Translations under genes and position numbers: made by a program
The notes under the pieces: model-generated
Databases searched by the model: none
The model's input: only the letters and a program-made list of their open reading frames with translations
Told to the model about the DNA's origin: nothing
Assembly (NCBI RefSeq): GCF_900111745.1
Contig: NZ_FOIJ01000017.1
Coordinates: forward strand, 62,001-126,000
From: Stigmatella erecta
Lineage (GTDB): Bacteria > Myxococcota > Myxococcia > Myxococcales > Myxococcaceae
Length of the DNA: 64,000 nt
Direction of reading: 5' to 3'
In this document: positions 36,837 through 63,400 of the stretch, in pieces
Position numbering within the stretch: the stretch's first letter is position 1
How the letters are laid out: every line of letters starts with the position of its first letter

Positions 36837-39800
36837 ATGGAGCGTCGGGTCCTCATCATCGAAAGCCAGAATGACTTTGCCCTCAGCATGGCCACCGTGC
36901 TCAAGAGCGCGGGTTACCAAACGGCCATGGCCACCACCGCGGCGGAAGCCCAGCGGGAGATGGAGAAGCGCCGGCCGGATCTCGTGGTGCTCCGCGCCGA
37001 GCTCCCGGATCAGTCCGGCTTCACCCTCTGTGGCCAGATCAAGAAGGGGAAGTGGGGCCAGAATCTGAAGGTGTTGCTGCTGTCCTCCGACACCGGCCAG
37101 GACGGGCTCAACCAGCACCGGCAGACGCCGGGCGCCGCGGACGGCTACCTCATCATCCCCTTCGAGATGGGGGAGCTGGCCTCGCTCAGCTCCGACATCA
37201 TGCCCCCCGGCACGGAGGACTCCGAGGATGCGTCGCTGGACTCGGCGCTGACCGGCAACGGCCCGCGCGAAGCCCCGCCGCCCATGCCTCCGCCCCTGAA
37301 GGCCCCGCCGGCCGGCGGCCCGCCCAAGCTGCCCAAGCGCGAGCGCCGCAGCGCCATCACGGACGAGGACCGGGGCTTCCTGGACCGGGCCTTCCAGTCC
37401 ATCGCGGACCGCAAGGCGGAGCTGCTCGCCGAGTCCCGCCAGCTCAAGCGCACCCCGCCCAAGCGCGAGCTGATGGGCACGCCCGAGGGCAAGATCCAGG
37501 TCCTGCGCGACGAGCTGAAGGTGCGCGAGGCACAGCTGGCGCGCCTGTCGGAGATCTGGAGCGTGCGCGAGCGCGAGCTGGTCTCCGTCGAGGACCGCCT
37601 CCACGAGAAGGACGTGGAGCTGCAGGGCCTGAAGATGCAGGTGGACGACCTGCTGCGCCGCTTCAACGAGGCGCAGTCGGCCATGCTCCAGAAGGAGCGT
37701 GAGCACGGCGCCACCGTGGATGACCTGCTCCTGCAGAAGTTCTCGGCCGAGAAGGACCTCATCGAGGTCGTCGCGGCCAAGGAAAAGGACATCAACGTCC
37801 TCAAGCGCGAGGTCAACAACCGCGACGAGGAGCTGTCGCGCCGCGCCACGGAGCTGGACACCGCGCGCGCCGAGTACGACAAGCTGGAGAAGCAGTACGG
37901 CGTGGCCACGCTGGAGTTCGAGGTCCGCGAGCAGAAGCTCGACGAGACCATCCGCGGCCACGAGACGGACATCGCCCAGCTGCGCAAGCGCGTCGAGGAG
38001 CTGGACGGCACCCTCGCCCAGACCGTCAGCGAGCGCGACCAGCGCTACGCCGAGCTGGAGGGTGAGATCCAGGCGCTCCAGGAGCGGCTGCAGCAGACCG
38101 AGCAGGAGCGCGACACCACCGTGCGCGCCCTGGAGCAGCGCGCCCTGGCCGCCGAGGACCACGGCGCCCAGTCCGACGCGGAGATCGAACGGCTCAAGGC
38201 CGAGCGCGCCGCGCTGGAGGCCCGGCTCAACCAGCAGATCTCCGAGCTGGAGGCCGACCTTGCCCGCACCACCGGGGAGCGCGATCAGCTCAAGCTCGAC
38301 AAGGACGCGCAGGAAGAAGAGCTCACCCAGCAGCTCAACGAGCGCGACGCGAAGCTCGCCACGCTCGAGCGCGAGATGGCCGACACCATCGCGCGCAACG
38401 AGCACCACGAGGCGGAGCTCAACTCCACCATCCAGCAGCACCTGGAGCGCATCGGTGAGCTGGAGGGCGAGGTCGAGGCCCTCAAGACGCACCTGGCCGA
38501 CCGCGAAGCCGAGCTGACCTCCGAGCTGGAGGCCCTCACCCAGGCCAAGAACGCGCTGGAGGCGGACCTCACCGCCCAGCTCGAGGCCTCGCAGCGCACC
38601 GGCGAGCAGCTCCAGGCGCGCATCGTCTCCCTGGACGAGACCGTCGCCCAGCGCGACAGCACCATCGAGGGGCTGCAGACGGACATCTCCGACCGCGACG
38701 CGAAGATCGCGGACCTGACGGGCAACCTGGAGGCCACCTCCCAGACCCTCACGGAGACCCAGGCCACCCTGGCCACCACGGAGGAGACCCTCTCCACCAC
38801 CCGCGGTGAGCTGGAGGCCACCTCCCAGACGCTCTCCGAGACCCAGGCCACCCTCACCCGGACCGAGGAGACGCTCTCCTCCACCCGCGGCGAGCTGGAG
38901 GCGACCTCCCAGACGCTCTCCGAGACCCAGACCACCCTGGCCACCACGGAGGAGACGCTCTCCTCCACCCGCGGCGAGCTGGAGGCCACCTCCCAGACGC
39001 TCTCCGAGACCCAGGCCACCCTGGCCCGGACCGAGGAGACCCTCACCAGCACGCGCGGCGAGCTGGAGGCCACCTCCGAGACGCTGGTGAAGACCCAGGC
39101 CACCCTGGCCACCACGGAGGAGACGCTCTCCTCCACCCGCGGCGAGCTGGAGGCCACCTCCCAGACACTCTCCGAGACGCAGACCACCCTGGCCTCCACG
39201 GAGGAGACGCTCTCCAGCACCCGCGGCGAGCTGGAGGCCACCTCCCAGACCCTCACGGAGACCCAGGCCACCCTGCAGCAGACGCTCGCGGAGCTGGCGC
39301 AGACCACCACCGTCCGGGACGAGCTGTCCGTCGAGCTGGACGACGCCCGCTCCACCCTGGAGTACACCCGCAACGAGCTCGCCCTCACCTCTCAGTCGCT
39401 CTTCACCCGCGATGGCGAGCTGAAGACGGCGCGCGGGGAGATCGACCGGCTCAGCGGCGTGCTCAGCGCCACCGAGCAGGCCAAGGCGGCCCTGGAAGAG
39501 GACCTCACCGGCCAGATTGGCCAGCTGCGCGCCGAGCTGTCCGAGACGCAGGGCAACTACGAGGCCGAGCGCTCCGCGCACCAGAAGCTCGCCGAGGAGA
39601 CCACGGCGCAGATCCAGGCGCTCACCTCCGAGCGGGATGGGCTGAGCCAGCAGCTCAGCACCACCCAGGAGACGCTGTCCTCCACCCAGGATCAGCTCGC
39701 CCAGACGCGGGACACGCTCGACGACGAGCAGACGGCGCACGAGGCCACCCAGAAGCGCGCGGCCCAGGTGCAGGCGGACCTGGAGTCGCAGCTCGCCGAC

Positions 39801-53403: not shown

Positions 53404-54471
53404 ATGCTGCCGAGCGCCATGCCCCGCCTCTTCGCCTTGTTGCTCGTGTCCCTCCCCTGCGCCGTCCTGGCCGGGGGCCCCGGAGCCTTCATCACCTCGG
53501 TCCGGGTGGAGGCGATGGCAGAGCCGGAGTCGTCCCAGGCCCTCTTCACGGTTGAGCCGGACACGTCCTATCCCTTGCTCAAGAAGGGCGGGCCCGGGCG
53601 CAAGTGGTGCAAGCTGCGCGGCGCCACGGCCGAGGGCTGGGTGCTCTGCGACGGGGCCGAGGAGACCGCGGTCGCCGCGGCGCCCGGCGCGGGGGTGCTC
53701 GCCGAGGCGGACAAGACCCCGGAGCTGGGCGTCCTCTCCACGGCGGCGCCCGAGGCCTCCGGCTGCGCGGCGACGTGTGCGCAGGCCCGCCTCTTCCCGG
53801 AGCCTCCCTCCGTGTCGGAGGTGGACCGGGAGGTGCTCGCCCTGTGCCCCTCGCGGCCCGATGGCTCGGTGAGCGCGGAGGCCATTCACCAGTTCTTCTC
53901 CAAGCACTACGAGGACAAGGCGCTCCAGCAGGCGCTGGCCGCGGCGGGACGGACGGTCGCGGGCCCCGAGGCCCGGCAGGCCAACCTCACGTGGCTCACG
54001 GGCCTCTGGACCGGCACCGGCCCGCGCAACGCCTTCACCTATGTCTTCTGTGGAGATGACTGGACGCGAGGGCTCATTGGCGGGCTCCACTTCCTGCCCC
54101 GCTACGCGCAGCTCGAAGCCGAGGGGAAGGTCTGCTTCACCGGCCCCGCGCGCGGGGACGCGGCCCTGCAGGGCGACAACTACCTCATCCAGTTCCGCGG
54201 CGTGGCGCCCTGGTCCTGCGGGGAGAAGAAGCTGGGCGGGTTCTCCCGCTCGCAAGGCGCGCTGAGCATCGCGGCCATCGGGGCGCAGGCCTTCGCGAAC
54301 TGCTGCGCGCGCGATGGGGCGAAGACCGAGGGCGGCGTCTACGCGGTGCCCGGGCTGGACGGCGCCACCTGGAAGATCCGCTGCGGCACGCGCAACGGCA
54401 CCTACGGCATCTCCTCGCTCTACCCCACCAGCGAGAGCCCCACCTGCGCGCAGCCGCAGGCCTCCCGCTAA
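53404..54471 (+). CDS. Secreted EndoU-like protein
   Basis: 355 residues (350 from an alternative ATG at 53419). A signal peptide (MPRLFALLLVSLPCAVLAGG) is followed by an SH3-like module with SYPLLKKGGPGRKWCKL and WVLCDG, then a Cys-containing linker. The C-terminal part (about 185-340) resembles EndoU/XendoU nucleases in motif order: HQFFSKHYED, NAFTYVFCGDD, GLIGGLHFLPRYAQLE, and EKKLGGFSRSQGALSIAA. These correspond to the His-containing strands and the Lys/Ser segment of EndoU. The first catalytic His (EHVF in the family) is replaced by Tyr in TYVF. The EndoU assignment is by recognition and is tentative. Confidence 0.62.
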   Translation: MLPSAMPRLFALLLVSLPCAVLAGGPGAFITSVRVEAMAEPESSQALFTVEPDTSYPLLKKGGPGRKWCKLRGATAEGWVLCDGAEETAVAAAPGAGVLAEADKTPELGVLSTAAPEASGCAATCAQARLFPEPPSVSEVDREVLALCPSRPDGSVSAEAIHQFFSKHYEDKALQQALAAAGRTVAGPEARQANLTWLTGLWTGTGPRNAFTYVFCGDDWTRGLIGGLHFLPRYAQLEAEGKVCFTGPARGDAALQGDNYLIQFRGVAPWSCGEKKLGGFSRSQGALSIAAIGAQAFANCCARDGAKTEGGVYAVPGLDGATWKIRCGTRNGTYGISSLYPTSESPTCAQPQASR

Positions 54472-54523
54472 ACCCCGCTCAAAACCGATGGGCTTGCCTT
54501 GGGCCCTCGCCAGCGCCATAATT

Positions 54524-54540
54524 TGGTCATGCGACCAATT
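54524..54540. repeat. Inverted repeat over the start codon of the oxygenase-WD40 gene
   Basis: TTGGTC and GACCAA flank ATGC so that the palindrome is centred on the ATG at 54529, within an A/T-rich patch (54521-54540) that stands out in this GC-rich region. It could bind a regulator or fold over the start codon in the mRNA. Confidence 0.6.
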
Positions 54541-56043
54541 TACTCCGGTGCCGCCACCATCGTCCGGGAGGCCGCGGACGTCCGGACGCCCCTGCCCTGC
54601 TTCCTGCTCCGGGGGGTGTTCTCCCGGAGCGAGTGCCTGGGCCTCATCCAGGAGGCGGAGCGCGAGGGCTTCCAGGCCACGGGCCGGGACTACCCCCCGT
54701 CCTACCGGGACAACGACCGGCAGGTGCATGACGACGCGGCGCTGGCGGACACGGTCTTCGCGCGCCTCCAGCCGTTTCTGCCCGAGCGGCTCGTGGATGC
54801 CGCGGGAGACACGTGGCACCTCCAGGGCCTCAACCCGCGCTTCCGCTTCTGCCGCTACCAGGGAGGCCAGCGCTTCTGCATCCACCGGGATGGCGCCTAC
54901 GCGCCCAGCCCCCGGGTGCGCTCGCACCTGACGTGCATGCTCTACCTCAACGACGCCCGGGAGTTCTCGGGCGGGGCCACCCGCTACTACGCCGATCGCT
55001 CCGAGGGGGCCGGGCTGCTGGGCGCCGTCCGTCCCGAGGCGGGCACCTTGATCGTCTTCGATCACGCGCTCTGGCACGACGGCGAAGCGGTCTCCGAGGG
55101 AACCAAGTACGTCCTGCGGACCGATGTCCTCTATGAGCACGAGGCCCCCGCGCCCACGGACCTGGACGGCGTGCTCACCGGGCACCAGGGCTACGTCTGG
55201 AGCGTGCTGGCGCGCCGGGATGGGCGCCTGGCCACCGCCTCGCGCGACGGCACCGTGCGGCTGTGGCGCGCCTCAGCGGGACACTGGGACTGCGACGCCG
55301 TGCTGACGGGCCACACCGCCTCGGCCGTCGCCCTGGCGGAGGACGCCCACGGCCGGCTCTGGAGCGCCTCGCGGGACCGGACGGTCCGCCGCTGGGACAC
55401 CGGCACCGCCCACATCGTGGGCCGCCACGAGGGGGCCGTACTGAGTCTGGCCGCCCTGGACGATGGACGCATGGCCAGCGGCGGTGCGGATGGGCTCATC
55501 CGGCTGTGGCCCTCGGACGGGGGCGCCCCGGAGGTCCTCCAGGGGCATACGGGCTGGGTCTGGGCCCTGGCGGCCCTGCCGGGCGGGTGGCTGGCCTCGG
55601 GCTCCGAGGATGGAACGGTGCGCCTGTGGCGGACCTCCCGGCCTCACGAGGTCTCTTCATCCGCCTCGGTGGGAGCGCCGGTCCGGGCCCTCACCGTGCT
55701 GCCGGACGGAAGGCTGGTCTCGGGTGGGGCCACGGGGGGGCTGACCCTCTGGCAGCCCTCCCTCTCCCCTCACCCCACCCTTCACGCCCTGCACACCCAG
55801 CGCGTCCACACGGGGGCGGTGTGCGCCCTGGCCCCCCTGAGCGGTGGGCGCCTGGCCAGTGGCGGGGAGGACGACGGCATCCACCTCACCCGCCTGCCGG
55901 ACTTCACCCGCCTCTGCCGCCACGCCCACGGGGACTTCGTCCGGGGCCTGGCCGTGCTGCCCGGGGACTTGCTCGCGAGCGCCTCCTACGACACCACCGT
56001 GCGGCTGTGGCCCGTCGAAGGCCCCGAGGGCACCCCCGCTTAG
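54529..56043 (+). CDS. 2OG-Fe(II) oxygenase fused to a seven-bladed WD40 propeller
   Basis: 504 residues. The N-terminal ~205 form a prolyl-4-hydroxylase-type double-stranded beta helix. FRFCRYQGGQRFCIHRDGAY carries iron ligands His119 and Asp121, MLYLNDAREFSGGATRYY follows, the distal His is His183 in ALWHDGEAV, and the 2-oxoglutarate Arg is Arg197 in KYVLRTDVLYE. Residues ~213-500 are seven WD40 blades, each with a GH...V...L.DGRLASGS.DGTVRLW pattern, enough for a closed propeller. The oxygenase should hydroxylate a protein or peptide delivered by the propeller. No signal peptide. The ATG at 54529 is preferred to a TTG at 54499. The end is 3 bases from convergent rlmE. Confidence 0.88.
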   Translation: MRPIYSGAATIVREAADVRTPLPCFLLRGVFSRSECLGLIQEAEREGFQATGRDYPPSYRDNDRQVHDDAALADTVFARLQPFLPERLVDAAGDTWHLQGLNPRFRFCRYQGGQRFCIHRDGAYAPSPRVRSHLTCMLYLNDAREFSGGATRYYADRSEGAGLLGAVRPEAGTLIVFDHALWHDGEAVSEGTKYVLRTDVLYEHEAPAPTDLDGVLTGHQGYVWSVLARRDGRLATASRDGTVRLWRASAGHWDCDAVLTGHTASAVALAEDAHGRLWSASRDRTVRRWDTGTAHIVGRHEGAVLSLAALDDGRMASGGADGLIRLWPSDGGAPEVLQGHTGWVWALAALPGGWLASGSEDGTVRLWRTSRPHEVSSSASVGAPVRALTVLPDGRLVSGGATGGLTLWQPSLSPHPTLHALHTQRVHTGAVCALAPLSGGRLASGGEDDGIHLTRLPDFTRLCRHAHGDFVRGLAVLPGDLLASASYDTTVRLWPVEGPEGTPA

Positions 56044-56046
56044 CGG

Positions 56047-56664
56047 CTAGGGCGCGGCGGGCGCGGGCGCCTTCAGGCGCAGGCCGACGAGGTACACCTC
56101 CATGCTGGCCCCGCGCGTGGCCTCGGGGCGCACCACCTTCACCTCGCCGTAGCTGGCGCGCACCTGCTCGCGGAACTCCTCGAAGTCGCCGCCCATGAAG
56201 AGCTTGGCCACGAAGCTCGAGCCGGGCCGGCCCCGCGTTACCGCCACCTCCAGCGCCTTGCCCGCGAGCCGCAGGCTGCGCGCCTCGTCCGTGGCCTTGA
56301 TGCCGCTCGTCTTGGGCGCCATGTCCGAGATGACCGCGTCGAGCGGCCCGTCGTACAGCGCCCGCAGCCGCGCATCGAAGTCGTCCGCCAGCACGTCCAG
56401 CACCGCCGTCGTCACGTTCTTCTGCGTGAACGGGCGGATGGCGACGATGTCCACGCCCATCACCCGGCCGGACAGGCCCACCGTGTCGGCGAGAATCTGC
56501 AGGAACCCGCCGGGGGCCGCGCCCAAGTCCAGCACCACCCCCCCTTTCTTCACGACCGGGAAGCGCCTTAAAATTTCGTCCACCTTGAAGGCAGACCTGG
56601 CGCGGAGCCCTTCTTGCTTGGCTTTCTGGAAATAGTGGTCCTTCGGTCGGTAGGGCTTGCCCAT
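56047..56664 (-). CDS. rlmE: 23S rRNA 2'-O-methyltransferase RlmE (FtsJ/RrmJ)
   Basis: 205 residues. It methylates the 2'-O of U2552 in 23S rRNA. The SAM-binding motif is VLDLGAAPGGFLQIL, and the K-D-K-E catalytic set is visible: Lys in RARSAFKVDEI, Asp in VISDMAPKTSG, Lys in SSFVAKLFMGGDFEEF, Glu in ASMEVYLVGL. The ATG at 56664 begins MGKPYRPKDHYFQKA, the family start; a longer frame adds unrelated residues. It converges on the oxygenase gene and diverges from the small membrane protein gene. Confidence 0.94.
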   Translation of the reverse strand: MGKPYRPKDHYFQKAKQEGLRARSAFKVDEILRRFPVVKKGGVVLDLGAAPGGFLQILADTVGLSGRVMGVDIVAIRPFTQKNVTTAVLDVLADDFDARLRALYDGPLDAVISDMAPKTSGIKATDEARSLRLAGKALEVAVTRGRPGSSFVAKLFMGGDFEEFREQVRASYGEVKVVRPEATRGASMEVYLVGLRLKAPAPAAP

Positions 56665-58945: not shown

Positions 58946-59818
58946 TCAGCGCGCGGGGAACTCGGCCACGAGCCGTCCCACTGCCTCCAGGACGGCATCG
59001 CCCGTGCCCTCCGGCCCCCGGTAGTAAGCGCTGACGAGCAGCGGGGCACGGTCCGGCGGCCAGAAGATCGCGATGTCGTTCACGACGCCATTGCCGCTGG
59101 TGCCCGTCTTGTCCCCGGCACGCCAGTCTGGCGGCACTCCCGCCCGCAGACGCTTCGCACCGGTCTTGCTCGCGGTCAGCCACGCCACCAGCCGCTCGCG
59201 TGAGCCCGCCGAGAGCGCATCCCCCACCAAGAGCCGCTGCATGTCCTGGAGCATGGCGGCCGGGGTGGTGGTGTCGCGGGGGTCTCCGGGCTTCGCCTCG
59301 TTCAGCTCCGTCTCGCGGCGGTCCAGCCGGGTCTTCCTGTCGCCCAGCGTGCGGACATAGCGGGTGAGCGCCGCTGGGCCGCCAAAGCTGTCGAGCAGCA
59401 GGTTGCCGGCCGTGTTGTCACTGAGGGTGATCGCGGCCTCGCAGATCGCCTCCAGCGTCATGCCATCCCCGCCCACATGCTCCTTCGTGACCGGAGAGTA
59501 GGAGACGAGATCCGCCTCGGAGAAGACGATGCGCCGGCCAAGCTGCTCCTCGCCGCGATCCACCCGGGCCAGCACCTGCGCGGCGGCCAAGAACTTGAAG
59601 GTGCTGCACAGCGGGAAACGCTCATCGGCGCGATGGAGCACCCGCGCACCGCTGGCGGTGTCGAGCACGGCGACGCCGAGCCTCCCGCCATGGCGGCGCT
59701 CCAGCTCCGCGAGGCGCAAGCGGCGGTCCGCCGCAGGCCCACCTGCTGCCCTGGTCTCTCGCGGGGCCGTCATCACCGCCGCCAACAGGCCCAGCAACAC
59801 GGGACGGCGGCCCATCAT
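58946..59818 (-). CDS. Class A beta-lactamase
   Basis: About 290 residues. A hydrophobic, Arg-led N-terminus (MMGRRPVLLGLLAAVM) ends near RAAG and looks like a signal for export. The serine hydrolase motifs are all present: STFK (nucleophile Ser and Lys) in PLCSTFKFLA, SDN in LSDNTAGNLLL, the general-base Glu in RRETELNEA, and KTG in GDKTGTSGNG. It should be an active class A enzyme. The start is uncertain: two adjacent ATGs at 59815-59818 have no ribosome-binding site, and a longer frame begins at 59875. No regulator gene of the ampR/blaI type is adjacent. Confidence 0.93.
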   Translation of the reverse strand: MMGRRPVLLGLLAAVMTAPRETRAAGGPAADRRLRLAELERRHGGRLGVAVLDTASGARVLHRADERFPLCSTFKFLAAAQVLARVDRGEEQLGRRIVFSEADLVSYSPVTKEHVGGDGMTLEAICEAAITLSDNTAGNLLLDSFGGPAALTRYVRTLGDRKTRLDRRETELNEAKPGDPRDTTTPAAMLQDMQRLLVGDALSAGSRERLVAWLTASKTGAKRLRAGVPPDWRAGDKTGTSGNGVVNDIAIFWPPDRAPLLVSAYYRGPEGTGDAVLEAVGRLVAEFPAR

Positions 59819-60135
59819 GCAAGGAGGTTTCACGAGACCTCTATAGGTACCAAGCCCACCACCAGAGGTAAACATTCACCGGCCTGGATGAGAGGACAGT
59901 GATTCAGAGGGTGTTGAACCGAAGGGAGTACGCCCAAGATGTAAGGCCCCCAGCATGCAGCCCGGCACAAGGCATAGAGAACAGCCTGGCAGAAGCTTGC
60001 CCTAACTGTTGCTCTGTTGGGTGGGTCACGCATGGTGCGACCTGGCAGGTTGCCCAGGCCTGTGCCCGCTCTACAGTCAAGGCCATGAGCCTTCTGAGCC
60101 TCCCCGGGTTTTGTTGGACACCGAAGATGAGGTGA

Positions 60136-60477: not shown

Positions 60478-63400
60478 ATGCGCCAGACATTCGGCTGGAT
60501 AATGGCAACGTTTCTTTTCTTTGCAGCAGAAGGAAGGGCCAGCGAAGAGACGCCGGAGGCGCGGCTTACAGATGCTCAGGCGAACTTTGATAATGCAACA
60601 AAGCTCATGGACGCGGGCAAATATCCCGAGGCCCTTACACAAGCGAAGCATGCGCTCTCGATCAGGGAGACCGTCCTTGGGGATACCCATCCTGACGTCG
60701 CCAGTTGCCTGAATCTGGTGGGGAACCTTTTTCGGCTCAACGGGGAGCTCGCCCATGCTGAGCCTTTCTACCGGCGGGCTCTGGCCATCCGTGAGGCTTT
60801 CCTCAGCAGGACCCATCCCCTCGTCGCCGCCTCTCTCAATAACCTTGCCAGCTTCTACTATGAGCAGGGGATGTATGACCGGGCGGAGCCCCTCCATCAG
60901 CGGGCTCTGGCCATCCGTGAGGCTTCCCTCGGCAAGAACCATCCCGACGTCGCCACGTCTCTCAACAACCTTGCCAGCCTTTACTATGAGCAGGGGTTGT
61001 ATGGCCGGGCGGAGCCCCTCCATCAGCGGGCTCTGGCCATCCGAGAAGCCTCCCTCGGCAAGTACCATCCCGACGTTGCCGCCTCTCTCAACAACCTCGC
61101 CAATCTCTACGCTGATCAGGGTTTGTACGACCGGGCGGAGCCCCTCTACCAACGGGCCCTGGCCATCCGCGAGGCCTCCCTCGGAAAAAGCCATCCCAGC
61201 GTCGCCACTTCTCTCACTAACCTCGCCCGCCTTTACGCTCAGCATGAGTTGTACAACCGGGCGGAGCCCCTCTACCAGCGGGCTCTGGCCATCCGCGAGG
61301 CCTCCCTCGGCAAGAGCCATCCCGACGTCGCCACCTCTCTCCACAACCTCGCGCTCCTCTACTCTGTGCAGGGACTGTACGACCGGGCGGAGCCTCTCTT
61401 TCAGCGATCCCTGACCATCCGTGAGGCCTCCTTTGGCAGGCACCATCCCCTCGTCGCCGCCTCTCTCGACAGCCTCGCCAACATCTATTATGAGCAGGGG
61501 TTGTATGACCGTGCGAAATCCCCCTACCAGTGGGCTCTAGCCATCCGCGAGGCCTCCCTCGGCAAGTACCATCCCCTCGTCGCCGCCTCCCTCAATAACC
61601 TCGCTCGCCTCTACTCTGCGCAGGGATTGTACAAGCAAGCGGAGCCCCTCTTCCAGCGAGCTCTGGCCATCCGCGAGGCTTCTCTCGGCAAGCACCATCC
61701 CTTTGTCGCCGTCTCCCTCAACAACCTCGCCAGCCTCTACGCTGACCAGGGTTTGTATGGCCGGGCGGAGCCCCTCCACCAGCGGGCTCTGGCCATCCGT
61801 GAGGCCTCCCTTGGCAAAAGCCATCCTAACGTCGCCACCTCTCTCACTAACCTCGCCAGCCTCTACGCTGCCCAGGGTTTGTATGGCCGGGCAGAGCCCC
61901 TCCACCAGCGGGCTCTGGCCATCCTTGAGGCCTCCTTCGGCAAGCACCATCCCCTCGTCGCCGCCTCTCTCGACAGCCTCGCCAGCCTCTACGCTGCCCA
62001 GGGTTTGTATGGCCGGGCGGAGCCCCTCTACCAGCGGGCTCTGGCCATCCGTGAGGGTTCCCTCAGCAAGCACCATCCCGACCTCGCCACCGCCCTCAAC
62101 AACCTCGCCAGCCTCCACTCTGAGCAGGGTTTGTATGACCGGGCGGAACCCCTCTACCAGCGGGCTCTGGCCATCCGCGAGGCTTCCCTCCGCAGGAACC
62201 ATCCTCTCGTCGCCGACTCTCTCAATAACCTCGCAAACCTCTACTCTGTACAGGGTTTTTATGACCGGGCGGAGCCCCTCCATCAGCAGGCTCTAGCCAT
62301 CCGCGAGGCCGCCCTCGGCAAGCACCATCCCGATCTCGCCACGTCTCTCAACAACCTCGCCATCCTCTACTATGAGCAGGGTTTGTATGACCGTGCGCAA
62401 CCCCTCTACCAGCGGGCTCTGGCCATTCGTGAGGCCTCTCTCGGCAAGCACCATCCCGACGTCGCCGCCTCTCTCCATAACCTCGCTAGCCTCTACGCTG
62501 CTCAGGGTTTTTATAACCGGGCGGAACCTCTCTTCCAGCGCTCGCTATCTCTCAGGGAGACGTCTCTCGGCAACAATCACCCTGAACTCGCTAAATCTCT
62601 CAACGATTTCGGCAAACTGCGTCTGATCCAGCATCGCCTTTATGACGCGTTACTGCTCTTCTCCCGTTCCTTCTCCATCTCCGAGCGCCGCCTTCGCCAT
62701 GAGGCTCTCGACTTCTCCGAGTCCCGCCTCTCCGATTTCCTTTCCCACCTGCGCAATAACGGGCAAGGGCTTTATTCTCTGCTACGCGCCTACCCCCAGG
62801 ACGCTCGCGTTCAACGCCTCGCCCTCAGCGCCGCTCTCCTTCTCAAGGGCCGTTCCGTCTCCGAGACCGCCGCCATCTCTCGCACCCTCTACGTCAGCAT
62901 GGCTCCTGAAGATCGCGATACTTTCGAGCGCCTCCGGGACCTGCGCACCCAACTGGCCTCTCTCTCCTTCTCAGGCCCGGGCGCTCTCTCTCCGGAAGTT
63001 TACCAACAGCGCCTTCACTCCCTTACCCAGGAGGGTGACGCGCTCGAAGCGGAATTGGCTAAAACCTCTGTTCCCTTTCGATCTCTCGCCGCTCTTCCTT
63101 CCCCCGACAACATCATCGACCACGTCTCCTCTTCACTTCCCAAGGACGCTGCGCTCGTCGAATTCATCGCTTACAACGATATCCCCTTGACTCGCAATGG
63201 CAGCCACCTGCGCTACCTGGCTCTGGTTCTCTTCCCGGATGCTTCTATCCGCGCTGTCGACTTGGGCCCTGCTTCTCCCATTGACCAAGCCGTCTCTCGC
63301 CTTCGTGATGCTCTGGCGGACAAAGACGCCTCCTTCCTCACCGCTTCTCAGCAACTCTACCGAAGCGCCTTTGAACCTCTGCGGCCCCTGCTCGGAGCTA

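Follow-up and report, generated by a model that had tools for sequence, protein, structure and literature searches.

A rare bacterial fusion of a prolyl-4-hydroxylase-fold oxygenase and a WD40 propeller, with a predicted TetR operator at its start codon

The window analyzed here, a stretch of 64,000 nucleotides from Stigmatella erecta, contains a gene that joins a 2-oxoglutarate (2OG)- and Fe(II)-dependent oxygenase to a WD40 propeller, which raises the question of what the enzyme acts on and how its production is controlled. The features of the locus are as follows:

54494..54522, + strand: sigma-70-type promoter-like site, TTGCCT-17-CATAAT (pattern match, conservation).
54523..54538, no strand assigned: operator-like palindrome TTGGTCATGCGACCAA over the start codon, predicted TetR site (exact match, conservation, codons).
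54529..56043, + strand: oxygenase-WD40 fusion gene, 504 amino acids, ATG start (open reading frame, Pfam, AlphaFold2).
54586..55140, + strand: prolyl-4-hydroxylase (P4H)-fold 2OG-Fe(II) oxygenase domain, about residues 20 to 204 (Pfam, profile and structure matches).
54883..54891, + strand: HxD metal motif, codons for His119 to Asp121 (invariant in 40 of 40 domains).
55075..55077, + strand: His183, third metal ligand (invariant in 40 of 40 domains).
55105..55107, + strand: Lys193, predicted 2OG-binding residue at H+10, as in P4Hs (profile alignment, 40 of 40 domains).
55168..56019, + strand: seven-repeat WD40 propeller, about residues 214 to 497, with the conserved top-face residues Y222, W224, S265, A303, W343, W345, and F470 (Pfam, AlphaFold2, match to 5yzv, conservation).

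It was confirmed that positions 54529 to 56043 encode a single chain with a P4H-fold 2OG-Fe(II) oxygenase and a seven-bladed WD40 propeller, as claimed in a preliminary description of the locus. A Pfam scan of the 504-amino-acid chain assigned residues 106 to 196 to 2OG-FeII_Oxy_3 with 44.2 bits (cut-off 27) and, in the same frame, detected WD40 with 120 bits (cut-off 27), and 7 WD repeats could be read by eye in residues 215 to 497. The full-length AlphaFold2 model, built from 5 sequences, likewise consists of an oxygenase and a propeller (pLDDT 85.4, pTM 0.81), and the model of the oxygenase alone, also from 5 sequences, had a pLDDT of 82.0. The propeller part matched 5yzv with a TM-score of 0.87 over the target (297 columns, 35% identity); in the excerpted source this structure is the WD40 domain of Thermomonospora curvata PkwA, likewise a prokaryotic propeller but one that belongs to another protein. 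The preliminary description also held that no bacterial P4H-type enzyme with its own propeller had been described, and in agreement with this, no paper on an oxygenase-WD40 fusion was found by title or start of abstract among the papers listed from the open-licence PMC literature. In a term search, the words "oxygenase" and "hydroxylase" were absent from the main text of a systematic study of prokaryotic WD40 proteins (PMC5587647).

A 2OG oxygenase profile of 7 sequences had prolyl 4-hydroxylases as its top PDB matches (3itq, 5hv0, 5c5t, and 2jig), with bacterial, viral, and algal enzymes first (E-values of 3.3e-7 for 3itq, 3.4e-6 for 5c5t, and 7.6e-4 for 2jig). The oxygenase model matched P4H, PHD, and lysyl-hydroxylase entries in a structure search with Z-scores of 14.8 to 17.3; the best match was 3gze (Z 17.3, 176 aligned residues, rmsd 3.1), followed by 5c5t (Z 17.1, 162 aligned, rmsd 3.0), and the entries retrieved included the P. 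putida P4H whose structure was determined together with EF-Tu (4j25, Z 15.6; 4iw3, Z 15.0). As modeled, the domain has the double-stranded β-helix of the P4H/PHD type. The modeled fold alone does not separate protein-acting from small-molecule enzymes, because PKHD/PiuC, AlkB, and PolD scored nearly as high (Z 14.8 to 16.8); lysyl hydroxylase (LH3), PKHD, and AlkB trailed the best P4H match by no more than about 2.5 Z units. Membership in the PiuC/PKHD family (PRK05467) was rejected, with 30.5, 23.4, and 18.6 bits against NCBIfam equivalog cut-offs of 143, 180, and 336.

We aligned 40 oxygenase domains, consisting of 13 fusions, 23 standalone domains, and 4 domains fused to adenylate kinase/APH, and found that H119, D121, H183, K193, R197, R60, N62, and R109 were invariant. 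The predicted metal ligands are H119, D121, and H183, and the active site is intact by alignment. In P4Hs, the lysine at H+10 binds 2OG, and since the profile alignment to BaP4H placed K193, 10 residues past H183, on this lysine, K193 and not R197 is likely to be the 2OG-binding residue. The preliminary description had proposed a site made of His119, Asp121, His183, and Arg197, and had named poorly conserved iron ligands in homologs as evidence that would count against its interpretation; the 3 metal ligands held up in all 40 domains, whereas Arg197 was rejected as the first choice of 2OG ligand. Being invariant too, R197 may have another role. BaP4H, PBCV-1 P4H, Chlamydomonas P4H, Pseudomonas PPHD, and HIF PHD2 share with the fusion the double-stranded β-helix, the HxD...H triad, and the lysine at H+10, but the P4H/PHD entries listed were only 13% to 25% identical to its oxygenase, and none is titled with a WD40 propeller. 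The standalone and adenylate kinase/APH-fused myxobacterial oxygenases belong to the same family, with identical H119, D121, H183, K193, and R197, but lack the propeller and fall into separate clades. Furthermore, Cys108 was found only in the fusions (13 of 13) and was replaced by Tyr (23) or Asn (4) in the other domains, and D63 was present in 13 of 13 fusions versus 8 of 27 other domains.

To map the taxa in which the two domains co-occur, as the preliminary description had suggested, genomes were searched with a domain-alignment query, which scored 7 to 32 candidates per genome. A fusion was accepted when its domain scored at least 245 bits and its frame had been read; the matches that followed, from 158 bits down, had a standalone domain at each of the 23 loci that were read. 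Within the genus, a full-length orthologue with 70% to 100% identity was present in 6 of 7 genomes, the exception being G005. The fusion was identified, with frames read, in 10 of 195 Myxococcota genomes from 5 genera and in 2 of 298 Pseudomonas genomes. Evenly drawn Pseudomonadota genomes yielded 1 in 398, namely the one on which the draw was centered, and one weaker match from this phylum that was read through lacked a propeller. A scan of contigs with 2 peptide patterns retrieved 4 loci, in a Myxococcaceae MAG, Hyalangium versicolor, the Myxococcales MAG L065, and Pseudomonas sp. Fl4BN1, of which L065 is one MAG beyond the 10 of 195. The fusion is thus rare, not common, and is kept in 2 distant bacterial groups, and it was intact in all 13 loci read.

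In a tree that also included 23 standalone domains from the best-scoring loci and was rooted on the adenylate kinase/APH group, the 13 fusion domains were placed on one side of a branch with support values of 93/87, recovered in 94% of the bootstrap trees; the branch was not starred, and long branches were flagged. This topology would be compatible with a single origin of the fusion. Transfer between the groups is likely, because the spread is so patchy. A search of plasmids returned 208 records, and among the 30 listed 2 had a coverage of 80% or more with an identity of 28%; a mobile element was rejected, the first of these 2 matches being, when read through, a WD40 protein without an oxygenase domain. 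Three phage records matched the oxygenase domain with 25% to 32% identity, and no relative was confirmed in IMG/VR with the 2 peptide patterns.

Other domain arrangements were observed during these searches. In a paralogous 2OG oxygenase, Pfam detects both an adenylate kinase and, further, an APH-type phosphotransferase on the same chain (L002:1456-3603; at G000:C1:834900 in the window genome), tails resembling adenylate kinase/APH were also seen in L014, L015, and L032, and long frames with an oxygenase domain were present in G000 to G003 and in G042. One Pseudomonadota genome contained 2 oxygenase-domain matches in tandem, in frames of 195 and 219 amino acids (G502:C20:1004649-1005889).

The region upstream of the gene contains the promoter-like site, which occurred once in positions 54200 to 56300 (mean of 0.0 and standard deviation of 0.2 in shuffled sequences), and its CTTGC and CATA-T elements were invariant in 6 orthologues. 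Since this site ends at 54522, transcription would start at about the ATG, and a leaderless mRNA is likely. The preliminary description took a palindrome over the start codon as a hint of regulation, and this suggestion gained considerable weight. The palindrome at 54523 to 54538 is exact. A scan of the window allowing 2 mismatches found just this one site, and 79 of 100 shuffled sequences (mean 1.56) contained at least one; the weight of the palindrome comes not from this chance test but from its conservation, its status as the sole perfect copy of the motif in the genome, and the rare codons at the site. Both half-sites are kept in the 6 genus orthologues (RACCAA on the right), and the DNA further upstream has diverged. 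Codons 2 to 4 are the only CGA among 49 Arg codons, the only CCA among 28 Pro codons, and the only ATT among 8 Ile codons of the gene, and they lie under and at the edge of the right half of the palindrome.

A search of 13 genomes gave 16 perfect copies of the motif TTGGTY-N4-RACCAA, of which 10 lie at fusion starts, 2 in tetR promoters, and 4 elsewhere, whereas the reversed motif, used as a control, gave 2 sites in these genomes (one in G002 and one in G004). The single perfect site in the 9.2 Mb window genome is the fusion start, the fusion-free G005 has none, and the 2 perfect sites in the 13.6 Mb of G006 are exactly those at the fusion and at tetR. Counting perfect copies and those with one mismatch, 12 of 13 loci have the motif where the fusion begins, with the one-mismatch variant in G007 and G051; MAG L065, which has the fusion, contained no such palindrome at its locus. 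In Pseudomonas and in G108, the motif does not cover the ATG but precedes both this codon and a ribosome-binding-like stretch. No shared gene was seen by eye around the 4 other palindromes (L154, L155, L158, and L159), and regulon members beyond the fusion and tetR were therefore rejected. Taken together, these patterns strongly support a predicted regulation through the palindrome.

The computed association with one type of regulator provides a candidate for the protein that binds there. A gene for a BetI-type TetR protein adjoins the fusion in 6 of the 13 loci in 2 arrangements: the two genes are divergent in G051, G007, G087, and both Pseudomonas genomes (G195 and G256), and in G108 tetR lies downstream, its start coinciding with the final base of the fusion gene. 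The TetR_N helix-turn-helix scored 41.0, 47.1, 43.8, and 49.8 bits (cut-off 24) in the 4 regulators scanned, and the regulator also matched the BetI-type C-terminal Pfam model, yet scores of 67.7 and 85.9 bits fall short of the 201.3 bits set as the BetI equivalog cut-off. Each of the 7 genomes of the genus has one strong TetR orthologue, which is unlinked to the fusion and starts 18 to 91 bases after an open reading frame with the same C-terminal end in all 7; the 2 of these frames that were scanned are phosphoribosyltransferases by Pfam, which we read as apt. The tetR of the window genome lies at G000:C2:78675-79250. In G000 to G003, the unlinked tetR lies 18 to 24 bases past the phosphoribosyltransferase gene without a palindrome of its own, whereas the tetR promoter region contains a perfect palindrome in G004 and G006 and a decayed one in G005. 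Since the perfect sites in G006 are only those of the fusion and tetR, we infer that TetR would bind the palindrome and repress both the fusion and its own gene. TetR may also have another role, because it is kept in G005, which lacks the fusion. No recognizable TetR was found among the open reading frames of at least 140 amino acids on the 7-kb contig of MAG L065.

A gene for an HD-like protein overlaps the end of tetR in G007, G051, G087, and G195, and a search of the remaining 9 genomes yielded no relative. Its match to Pfam HD was weak (best E-value 0.0022, in 2 of 4 members), and an essential role was rejected in favor of an accessory one, the gene occurring in 4 of 13 genomes and always beside tetR. 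At L125:7186-8513 and L080:4673-8382, MBL-fold genes were observed close to this type of tetR, one in G108, where it follows tetR (Anti-Pycsar Apyc1, 58.5 bits against a cut-off of 50), and one in the window genome (Lactamase_B_2, 46.7 bits, cut-off 27; Apyc1, 39.8 bits, below the cut-off); TetR and an MBL-fold hydrolase possibly represent an older linkage.

To examine the propeller, we compared 9 representatives from Myxococcota and Pseudomonas. R1 and R1-2 top-face positions follow a WD40 convention. The 14 top-face positions had a mean conservation of 0.82 versus 0.53 elsewhere in the same propeller, whose other positions served as the baseline, and none of 20,000 random draws of propeller positions reached 0.82, although the positions were chosen with alignments already in view, in which some of them had been marked as invariant. 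Y222, W224, S265, A303, W343, and F470 were conserved in 9 of 9 representatives, and W345, L305, and P384 in 8 of 9, while V267, A430, and C432 were at 0.44. A conserved aromatic top face would be expected of a propeller that binds a specific peptide, and these residues would fit a specific partner.

With confidence leaning only just its way, we favor a TetR-repressed P4H-type oxygenase with a substrate-recruiting propeller that hydroxylates a protein or peptide partner. The BetI-type TetR would keep the gene off by binding to the palindrome at the -10/+1/start-codon region, and the appearance of its ligand would release TetR and allow the fusion enzyme to be made. The top face of the propeller would then bind a specific protein or peptide, which the iron site next to it would hydroxylate using O2 and 2-oxoglutarate. 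A protein or peptide substrate is favored because of the P4H-type fold and the conserved aromatic top face, and hydroxylation of a prolyl residue would be the predicted activity of this class.

The main rival is a small-molecule oxygenase under a TetR that senses the substrate, be it a xenobiotic, a signal, or a secondary metabolite, with a propeller that does not recruit proteins but acts as a platform for assembly or docking, or as a lid; we regard this as possible but doubtful. A BetI-type TetR with almost one target would be usual for the gene of a small-molecule-sensing enzyme, PolD acts on a small molecule and is, like PiuC, structurally close to the oxygenase, and the patchy distribution and the HD-like gene overlapping tetR in 4 genomes point in the same direction. 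Yet the aromatic top-face positions are conserved, the best sequence-profile matches are prolyl 4-hydroxylases, and by eye the flanks that were read contain no biosynthetic or transport gene that recurs next to the fusion. In G006, however, the unlinked tetR is followed by an MFS gene.

It is unlikely, in our estimate, that the fusion is a self-contained bacterial counterpart of the eukaryotic pairing of PHD enzymes with WD-repeat proteins, namely an O2- and 2OG-responsive switch whose propeller brings a specific protein to the hydroxylase, with the hydroxylation state feeding back on expression of the fusion; the cognate TetR is a possible target because its gene is the one most often found beside the fusion. 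Slightly less probable still is a propeller that merely stabilizes or oligomerizes the enzyme without a specific ligand, as a product of domain shuffling in WD40-rich genomes. The genomes of the genus contain many WD40 matches, and the propeller evolves faster than the oxygenase, with dN/dS values (NG86, 4 pairs) of 0.16 to 0.42 versus 0.07 to 0.23, both halves being under purifying selection. Against this, conservation of the top face clearly exceeds the propeller mean in the representatives from Myxococcota and Pseudomonas, and no broken fusion was seen in the 13 loci. A part in an anti-phage or kin-recognition system is the least probable reading: many WD40-enzyme fusions of multicellular bacteria belong to biological-conflict systems, PADLOC matched 2OG and WD40-like models, and G108 has an Apyc1-like MBL gene after tetR, the window genome a weaker one near it, but the PADLOC matches in the 3 proteins scanned are to generic domains, and dedicated TetR control with purifying selection would be more like metabolism or signaling.

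Known systems offer comparisons for the favored reading. MORG1 is a WD-repeat protein, and to our knowledge few bacterial protein hydroxylases have known targets. Excerpts of the literature describe MORG1 as a scaffold for PHD3 in mammals and the binding of the WD-repeat protein SWAN-1 to EGL-9 in C. elegans (PMC2928816). In both cases a PHD-family enzyme is likewise paired with a WD-repeat protein, but the latter is on a separate chain whereas the myxobacterial fusion is one chain, and the likeness need not reflect homology of the pairing. Excerpts of 2 further papers (PMC4543633, PMC5701443) report hydroxylation of EF-Tu by Pseudomonas PPHD, a bacterial precedent for protein prolyl hydroxylation, and those of the former also state that ycfD acts on L16 and that the majority of 2OG oxygenases acting on proteins carry further, "non-catalytic" parts for binding (PMC4543633). 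The fusion is a real new architecture among prolyl-hydroxylase-type oxygenases, rare, conserved, and apparently tightly regulated. With its own likely recruiting domain, the propeller could be used as bait for the target, and the predicted repressor and operator offer a handle for switching the enzyme on. Such experiments would test whether bacteria have separately invented the pairing of a PHD-type enzyme with a WD-repeat scaffold that in animals is formed in trans.

Three other features were observed in the window. At positions 60760 to 62540, a 126-bp tandem repeat is present in 14.1 copies with 81% matches, and its unit is probably of the TPR type. A gene of the serine beta-lactamase family (58949 to 59875, - strand; Beta-lactamase2, 164.7 bits) adjoins a phosphofructokinase gene. 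Finally, positions 38727 to 39275 contain 6.5 copies of 84-bp repeats, which by eye resemble a coiled coil, within a stretch whose AT skew is strong (0.30 to 0.39).
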